From assembly GCA_035517655.1 (NCBI GenBank), contig DATIYJ010000017.1, positions 1-42,446 on the forward strand: a DNA stretch of 42,446 nucleotides, written 5' to 3'. The notes under the pieces were generated by a model. The model was not told the origin of the DNA. It worked only from the letters and a program-made list of their open reading frames with translations, and did not search any database. Origin of the DNA: Nitrospiria bacterium (lineage in GTDB: Bacteria; Nitrospirota; Nitrospiria; JACQBZ01). Within the stretch, counting starts at the first letter, position 1, and each line of letters opens with the position of its first letter. Position numbers and translations under genes: made by a program. Of the stretch, positions 27,278-39,369 are shown one piece after another.

Positions 27278-27493
27278 TTATCTCGATTGGGCCGACAGCC
27301 GAACCACGTTCGATGCCTGCGGGCCTTTCGGACCCTGGGTCACTTCAAACTCGACCGCTTCACCTTCGTCAAGCGACTTGTATCCGTCGCCTTGGATCGC
27401 GGAGAAGTGCACAAACACATCTTTGCCGTCCTCCTGAGACAGGAATCCATAACCCTTGCTGGCGTTAAACCACTTCACAGTGCCTTTTGCCAT
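27278..27493 (-). CDS. cold shock domain protein (CspA family)
   Basis: This 71-residue single-domain OB-fold protein has RNP1 KGYGFLSQ at 13-20 and RNP2 DVFVHFSAI at 25-33. It binds single-stranded RNA or DNA and acts as an RNA chaperone. AAGGGGTG lies about 10 bases before the ATG, and GATAAT about 40 bases upstream is a possible -10. The gene's transcript should start after the terminator at 27597-27633. Confidence 0.96.
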
Positions 27494-27596
27494 TCTTTTT
27501 TCACCCCTTTCTTATGTATGAATGAGATTATCGTTTGAGGTTTCTCTGAAGGTATGGACAATCAGGAATCCCCGCTTGGAGCCGTCCGCGGGTCAC

Positions 27597-31461: not shown

Positions 31462-31782
31462 TCATCTCCCCCGGCCGCCGCGGCCGCCGCCGTATCCCCC
31501 ACCGCCATATCCCCCGCCTCTGGGTTCCCGTTTCTGCTGGGGACGGGCTTCGCTGACGATCAGGCTTCTATCCATAAAACTCTTCCCGTTAAGCATCTCG
31601 ATGGCTTTTTGAGCGTCTTCGGAAGAACCCATCTCCACAAACCCGAACCCGCGCGGACGCCCCGTCTGACCATCGGTGATGACCTTGACGGAAGCCACCG
31701 TTCCCGCGGTGGCGAACAAATCGCTGATCTCTTTTTCTGTCGCTTGATACGAAAGATTACCGACGTAAAGCTTCGCGCCCAT
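31462..31782 (-). CDS. RRM RNA-binding protein with Gly/Arg-rich tail
   Basis: This 106-residue protein has a single RNA-recognition motif with RNP2 KLYVGNLSY at 4-12 and RNP1 RGFGFVEM at 44-51, then a tail rich in Gly, Tyr and Arg (about 85-106). Small one-RRM proteins with RGG tails are common in cyanobacteria and proteobacteria, bind single-stranded RNA and often respond to cold. The ATG has AAAGGAG about 8 bases upstream. It has its own promoter at 31856-31884 and a 7-bp palindrome (CCGAAGG-T-CCTTCGG, 31814-31828) in its leader. Confidence 0.96.
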   Translation of the reverse strand: MGAKLYVGNLSYQATEKEISDLFATAGTVASVKVITDGQTGRPRGFGFVEMGSSEDAQKAIEMLNGKSFMDRSLIVSEARPQQKREPRGGGYGGGGYGGGRGGRGR

Positions 31783-33363: not shown

Positions 33364-33549
33364 TTACGGCTCGAGGTCGCGCGACTTCACGGTTTTTCGC
33401 CCGTCCGCCTTGGCCTTCTCGATCGCGTCCAGGCAGAGTTTCTCAACCCGCTGGCTCAGCACCTCCAGAATTTCGGCCGACGTATTGAACCCGGACTTTT
33501 CCCGCACAAATTTCTTCACCTTCGATGCCACCACCAAAATATCCGCCAT
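33364..33549 (-). CDS. bacterial histone (single histone fold, Bd0055-like)
   Basis: This 61-residue protein forms one histone fold: a short first helix (DILVVASKVKKFVREKSG), a long central helix (TSAEILEVLSQRVEKLCLDA) and a C-terminal part with RKTVKSRDL. It is very like the one-domain histone of Bdellovibrio bacteriovorus (Bd0055), known to be an abundant chromatin protein that binds DNA as dimers. No eukaryote-like tail is present. ATG 33549 has AAAGGAG about 8 bases upstream and a good promoter (33629-33656); a longer open frame to 33660 would overlap that promoter. It is probably a nucleoid protein with possibly high expression. Confidence 0.9.
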   Translation of the reverse strand: MADILVVASKVKKFVREKSGFNTSAEILEVLSQRVEKLCLDAIEKAKADGRKTVKSRDLEP

Positions 33550-33628
33550 GCGTCTCTCCTTTCGGTATGAGTTTTTCGGATTGAATTTCTCCGACTGCGT
33601 TTCGGAGCGATGAAACAAAGCGGTCTTT

Positions 33629-33656
33629 ATTATAGCCATCCCTCTTTTCGCGTCAA
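33629..33656 (-). promoter_or_regulatory. histone gene promoter
   Basis: Minus strand TTGACG (33656-33651), 16-base spacer, perfect TATAAT (33634-33629). Confidence 0.72.
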
Positions 33657-33675
33657 GCATTATTATGACCGGGGC

Positions 33676-38373: not shown

Positions 38374-39369
38374 GTGGCCGAATCGAAAACCAAAACGACG
38401 CGCAAACCCGGCGCCGGAAGACGGCGCAAGAAACCGGGCGGCGTTTCGACGGGACTTTCCGCGCCCGACCTGCTGGCCGCCGCGCCGCCGGCGAACGTCG
38501 CCGAGCTGCACCGGCTTATCGAGGCCGACGGCGGGAAAACGCTCGCGACCTATCGCGAACCCTACGGCGGAAACTGGCTGGCGCTGGCCGCGCTGCCGAT
38601 CGAGAGCGTCGAGCCGACGCCCTACCAGCGGAACCTCTCCGAGACGCATGTCCGGAAACTGGAGAACGTCATCGGAAAGATCGGCCGCTTCCTCGACCCG
38701 ATCATCGCGGTCCGGAACGATGCCGGCGGGACGGTGAAGTACTGGACGCCGAACGGCCATCACCGGCTCTCGGCGATGCGGACGCTCGGCGCGAAGAGCA
38801 TCGTCGCGATCGTCGTGCCGGAGCCCAAGGCGGCCTACCAGATCCTCGCGCTCAACACCGAGAAGGCGCACAACCTTCGCGAGAAATCGCTGGAGGTCGT
38901 CCGGATGTACAAGGAACTGGCCCGATTCGACGACATTCACGAGGAGGCCTACGCGCTCGAATTCGAAGAGCCGGGCTTCATCACGCTGGGTTTCTGCTAC
39001 GAAGACCGGCCGCGCTTCTCGGGCGGCGCGTACAACCCGATCCTCCGGCGGGTGGAACAGTTCTTGACGAAACCGATCCGCGAGGCGATGGAGATTCGGA
39101 AGGACCGCGCGACGCGGTTGCTCGCGCTGGACGACGCGGTGACGAAGCAGGTCGAGGCCCTGAAATCCCGGGGCCTGGCCAGCCCGTATCTCAAAAGCTT
39201 CGTCGTCGCGCGGATCAACCCGATCCGCTTCCGGCCCAAGGACGCCGAGCCGCTCGGCTTCGATGAAGTGATCGACCGCATGACCAAGACCGTCGTCAAA
39301 TTCGAGCCCTCGAAGATCACCATGGACGACCTCGCCCGCTCCGGCAGCACGGGGGATGAATCCGAATGA
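38374..39369 (+). CDS. orphan ParB N-terminal domain protein
   Basis: This 331-residue protein starts at GTG after GAGG. A basic N-terminus (about 1-25) precedes a ParB/Srx N-terminal (ParBc) domain: ALPIESVEPTPYQRNLSETH, VRKLENVIGKIGRFLDPIIA, and WTPNGHHRLSAMRTLGAKSI, the helix-containing signature. The rest (about 155-331) is not a standard ParB C-terminal part. No ParA ATPase and no parS-like repeats are next to it, so a role in chromosome segregation is not supported. ParBc domains also act as CTP-binding switches and nuclease- or kinase-like enzymes. The C-terminal region (RPRFSGGAYNPILRRVEQFL) is well conserved-looking but unassigned. Confidence 0.87.
   Translation: MAESKTKTTRKPGAGRRRKKPGGVSTGLSAPDLLAAAPPANVAELHRLIEADGGKTLATYREPYGGNWLALAALPIESVEPTPYQRNLSETHVRKLENVIGKIGRFLDPIIAVRNDAGGTVKYWTPNGHHRLSAMRTLGAKSIVAIVVPEPKAAYQILALNTEKAHNLREKSLEVVRMYKELARFDDIHEEAYALEFEEPGFITLGFCYEDRPRFSGGAYNPILRRVEQFLTKPIREAMEIRKDRATRLLALDDAVTKQVEALKSRGLASPYLKSFVVARINPIRFRPKDAEPLGFDEVIDRMTKTVVKFEPSKITMDDLARSGSTGDESE

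Follow-up and report, generated by a model that had tools for sequence, protein, structure and literature searches.

Histones are rare in bacteria, where they occur in <2 percent of genomes (PMC10627809, PMC12701072), and PMC12701072 describes HBb and HLp as the only two bacterial histones that have been studied experimentally. HBb (Bd0055) of Bdellovibrio bacteriovorus (PDB 8CMP, 8FVX, 9EZZ, 9F0E) ranks 12 of 2,125 proteins by abundance in Bdellovibrio (PMC10627809), and its important DNA contacts are given as N22, R57, S9, T53, T8, S24, K10, K12, K52 and K16 (PMC11317129). HLp of Leptospira perolatii (PDB 9QT0-9QT2) is a face-to-face histone. In this type, an Arg/Asn pair joins dimers into tetramers (PMC11390915, PMC12701072), the residues concerned in HLp being R49 and N53 (PMC12701072). 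The archaeal nucleosomal histones of HMfB type have longer helices 2 and 3 and tetramer contacts (PMC11317129). The category of bacterial dimer histones was defined by sequence clustering, and its main homes are the Bdellovibrionota, Elusimicrobiota, Spirochaetota, Planctomycetota, Myxococcota_A and Chlamydiota (PMC11390915).

We analysed a stretch of 42,446 nucleotides (hereafter the window) that carries a genuine short bacterial histone gene of the class Nitrospiria (Nitrospirota), from groundwater bacteria (Table 1). The open reading frame starts with ATG and encodes 61 amino acids. A longer alternative frame of 98 amino acids starts at position 33660; the shorter product was retained because conservation among its relatives begins with the ATG at 33549 and the longer start lies upstream of the promoter-like site. 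This histone represents a new branch of a published subfamily and not a new kind of protein.

Table 1. Histone gene, upstream signals and nearby genes in the window
Feature	Position	Strand	Evidence or conservation
61-residue bacterial histone (HBb/Bd0055 type)	33364..33549 (incl. stop codon)	-	E 3e-19 to HBb; model and fold search
Ribosome-binding site AAAGGAG	33556..33562	-	present in 6/7 family members aligned
-10 box TATAAT	33629..33634	-	identical in 7/7 family members aligned
-35 box TTGACG	33651..33656	-	TTGAC(G/C) in 5/7 family members aligned
RRM gene	31462-31782	-	PF00076, E 7e-24
Cold-shock gene	27278-27496		PF00313, E 7e-31
Lys/Arg-rich protein, 161 aa	26688-27173	+	
331-aa protein with basic N-terminus	38374-39369	+	

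Using phmmer against PDB sequences, the best matches were the Bd0055/HBb entries 8FVX (E 3.3e-19) and 8CMP (E 3.7e-19), aligned over residues 1-59 with 36/59 residues identical. HLp of Leptospira (2.5e-6), 9F2C (2.4e-5) and HmvA (1.2e-4) gave weaker matches. Among the characterised bacterial histones HBb is therefore the closest, and the window protein clusters with it on the basis of phmmer E values rather than of CLANS. With the HMfB-type histones it has in common the histone fold and the K52/T53 motif, at about 20 percent identity.

We then predicted the structure of the protein. AlphaFold2 gave a pLDDT of 85.2 from the single sequence, and the monomer model built with 18 aligned sequences reached a mean pLDDT of 89.3, with helices at residues 8-19 and 25-48 and a third helix of 3 residues. 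As expected of bacterial dimer histones, the model comprises one histone fold, about 60 residues long, in which helices 2 and 3 are shortened. In structure searches (Foldseek, VIA-align), the four HBb entries rank first (Z 9.4-9.5, rmsd 1.1-1.6 A), followed by HLp and HTkC at Z 8.0-8.2, all remaining histone folds being at 6.7 or below. The initial annotation, made from the letters alone, had read the gene as a 61-residue single histone fold near Bd0055; the sequence comparison bears this out, and so does the predicted structure, which has the fold and matches the HBb crystals.

The resemblance to HBb extends to individual residues. The two proteins share their length, the single fold, the short helix 2, a one-turn helix 3, the RKT loop and the RD clamp, and eight of the ten HBb DNA-contact residues are identical in the window protein, which differs by T8A and K16R and comes from a different phylum. 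The clamp residues R51 and D58 are retained together with D49, and the RKTxxxD motif characteristic of the class is present as RKTVKSRD (R51, K52, T53, D58). Likewise, the helix-1 lysines K10 and K12 (HBb numbering) are kept, while K16 is replaced by Arg. Seven positions (V7, S9, K10, L31, K52, T53 and D58) are invariant across 22 aligned sequences. Lys 45 and Asp 49 occupy the tetramer positions of the window protein, so that the Arg/Asn pair is absent, as the dimer class requires. HLp, with which it shares the alpha3 histone fold and the RD clamp, is a tetramer through Arg and Asn at these places. One HBb-like histone of another Nitrospiria genome (L029:1501-1680, G257) carries Arg 45 and Asn 49 at the tetramer-contact positions of face-to-face histones.

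The host of the window histone is not known to be a predator, as Bdellovibrio is. Literature searches found nothing on histones in Nitrospirota or Manganitrophaceae, an entry in supplementary tables being possible, and the string 'Nitrospir' is absent from the main text, supplements aside, of PMC11390915, PMC10627809 and PMC12701072. The survey of PMC10627809 combined Pfam models at their curated cut-off with Jackhmmer searches from eight seeds. The window protein scores 20.1 bits with PF00808 (CBFD_NFYB_HMF), i.e. 1.3 bits under the curated cut-off of 21.4, and 19.4 bits with PF09123 (DUF1931), for which the cut-off is 21.8. A PF00808 search of the whole genome that contains the window therefore reported no histone. 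Among 20 Nitrospiria proteins, 9 lie above the PF00808 cut-off, one is tied with it (21.4 as printed) and 10 are below; all 20 stay under the DUF1931 cut-off. The scarce notice given to Nitrospirota histones may thus stem from the Pfam cut-off that surveys use, behind which close relatives of HBb are hidden.

Then, we investigated the signals upstream of the gene. The AAAGGAG and TTGACG-16-TATAAT of the initial annotation were both recovered, the former six bases ahead of the ATG and the latter spanning 33656 to 33629 with a score of 11/12 against the consensus. Over the whole window, six sites including that of the histone reach 11 or 12 of 12 (mean of 60 shuffles, 0.13) and 26 sites reach 10/12 (3.1 expected from 60 shuffles). 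The promoter-like site of the histone therefore exceeds chance, and it is equalled by five further sites in the window. Of the 'own strong promoter' that had been proposed, what stands is a site above chance and conserved in the family; 'strong' describes the match to the consensus only. The sequences ahead of 30 other loci, of which the window's family contributes six, were also searched for a promoter of like form. Outside this family, a similar site (at least 10/12, spacing of 16-18 bases, near the start) was found only at two loci (L010 and L026), with a weaker one at a third (L035). As the like form was not seen in most other families of the class, the promoter claim is restricted to the window's family.

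The gene order is largely kept within the family: HAD phosphatase, M16 peptidases, DUF1499, histone, then a convergent zinc-ribbon gene, RRM and AlgH-like. Among five family loci (L005-L009), one (L009) has no M16 gene here and three of the five have a DUF2231 gene. In the loci examined outside the family, most of which span just 1.5 kb on each side, the search recovered none of these neighbours. The histone gene, with a convergent gene downstream and its own promoter-like site upstream, is a stand-alone unit conserved in the family; this site and this neighbourhood distinguish it from the HBb gene. The surroundings had also been described as rich in nucleic-acid binders. The genes are real, and they form a loose cluster without an operon link, with the RRM gene about 1.6 kb and the cold-shock and Lys/Arg-rich genes about 6 kb from the histone. 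We found no functional link between the histone and these three genes, and the gene order shows no shared unit. The protein called Lys/Arg-tailed does exist as a Lys/Arg-rich protein, but its basic stretch is N-terminal: behind a first half that is very rich in Lys/Arg, the protein weakly matches domain 2 of elongation factor Tu (20.6 bits, under the cut-off). The RRM protein has a Gly/Arg-rich tail and passes the cut-off of the NCBIfam model of a bacterial RNA-binding regulator.

We next searched whole genomes for the gene. It is present in 7/7 genomes of the window's family, which makes up the whole order in our collection, in 3/3 genomes of a second order and in 14/18 of a third, which includes Candidatus Manganitrophaceae. 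Within the third order, 5/6 genomes carry it in the family of the Manganitrophaceae record, a record assigned to this family on the ground that its upstream sequence is the same as in genome G496 (L011, L044). In the class Nitrospiria as a whole, 26/269 genomes (19/176 of those of good quality) have the gene, i.e. 24 in the three orders and one in each of two further families (G163 and G362). Searches of the other 243 of the 269 genomes did not recover it, so Nitrospiria in general can do without the histone. From a phylum sample, 18/395 genomes gave a match, reduced to 17 after the one in G389 was discarded, and all 17 belong to the class Nitrospiria. The G389 match (L036) was counted as chance: it shows 37 percent identity over 43 residues, contains one stop and overlaps the start of a gene that looks like a transketolase. 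A second copy in G496 (L056) was left out for its internal TAG. Named relatives on GTDB genome contigs include eight Nitrospirae/Nitrospiria records at 80-100 percent identity, one of them Candidatus Manganitrophaceae, and, more distantly, two Elusimicrobia (48-55 percent) and three Nanohaloarchaea (42-45 percent). In addition, histones that share 45-51 percent identity with the window protein are encoded on six viral contigs (L057-L062), three of which measure 179-190 kb.

Members of the window's family share 90-100 percent identity. In five within-family comparisons with the window, the histone dN was 0.018, 0.026, 0.056, 0.052 and 0.068, each time below that of whichever of the zinc-ribbon, DUF1499, M16, HAD and AlgH genes were included in that comparison, the RRM gene being about equally slow. 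The histone changes more slowly than six of the seven neighbour genes tested and is under purifying selection. A tree of origin was built from 36 rows and 59 columns, and 6 of its 32 inner branches are starred. It sorts the Nitrospiria proteins roughly by family and groups HBb with two viral proteins and a zinc-finger histone (L037). As this grouping lacks starred support, we claim neither an origin nor a transfer. The zinc-finger histone (G294, contig 84) is a second histone in its genome, encoded in a frame of 188 amino acids, in which an HBb-like histone fold comes after an N-terminal stretch rich in Cys and His; it resembles by eye the published ZZ-type zinc-finger histones, and Pfam assigns it no family.

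The window gene very probably encodes a nucleoid-associated histone of the published bacterial dimer subfamily (alpha3), i.e. a dimeric, sequence-independent DNA bender that would act beside HU/IHF from its own transcription unit. By analogy with HBb, two 61-residue chains would pair through their central helices, the L1-L2 loops (N22, S24, K52, T53, R57) would grip the DNA backbone at the minor grooves and the start of helix 1 (S9, K10, K12) would hold it as well. The DNA would then be bent without sequence preference, as with the experimentally studied HBb, by a histone presumably expressed from a single-gene unit. A DNA-wrapping tetramer of the face-to-face (HLp) type, in which two dimers would meet at helix 3, loop 2 and the end of helix 2, is an improbable alternative: HLp and HTkC come next in the structure ranking and the class relative L029 has the Arg/Asn pair, but these positions are Lys and Asp in the window protein, which is clearly nearer to HBb in sequence.

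Eukaryotes use the histone fold in TAF and NF-Y subunits, and TAF chains are among the weaker structure matches (1taf_B, Z 6.7), so that the protein might instead be a local regulator or the partner of another protein. We regard this as hardly probable, since the backbone-contact residues of HBb are retained, no partner gene stays adjacent outside the family and there is no extra domain. The viral relatives would fit a recently acquired phage gene or a contaminant, and the resolution of the tree is too poor to argue against an ancient transfer. Against a gene that is not native stand its presence in every genome of the order, the 90-100 percent identity to family members and the phage records, which gave no match; the order-wide neighbourhood already largely refutes this reading, for which the chances are very slim.

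We also compared the HU/IHF complement of 18 histone carriers (of 26) with that of 18 non-carriers (of 243). HU/IHF matches, fragments counted too, number 2-9 per genome with the histone and 2-5 without. A replacement of HU by the histone was rejected, all 36 chosen genomes having HU/IHF matches; the histone adds to HU/IHF. The window's genome has three HU/IHF genes, and the histone would act alongside these three proteins, not instead of them. Codon adaptation was tried as a proxy for abundance and dropped. The histone scores 0.816 (ribosomal median 0.739), but this shows nothing: values of 0.80-0.85 are reached by the M16, zinc-ribbon, ParB-like and HAD genes nearby, and of 511 background windows of 61 codons, 103 equal the histone. 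Since HBb is one of the most abundant proteins of Bdellovibrio, a similar abundance role is likely in the window's organism.

More broadly, and with some doubt, it is possible that in a Nitrospirota branch of several orders (including Ca. Manganitrophaceae) an HBb-like histone has been a major and perhaps essential nucleoid protein since the common ancestor, with Pfam-based surveys seeing about half of its members. If so, the switch between bending dimer and wrapping tetramer could be studied inside one clade, L029 being the one member with the Arg/Asn pair. The Nitrospirota copy also offers a setting apart from Bdellovibrio predation and raises the question of why a histone is kept beside HU and IHF. 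Elsewhere in the window, the 331-aa protein has no Pfam match at E <=1 and contains a GHHRLSAMR stretch reminiscent of ParB-like domains.
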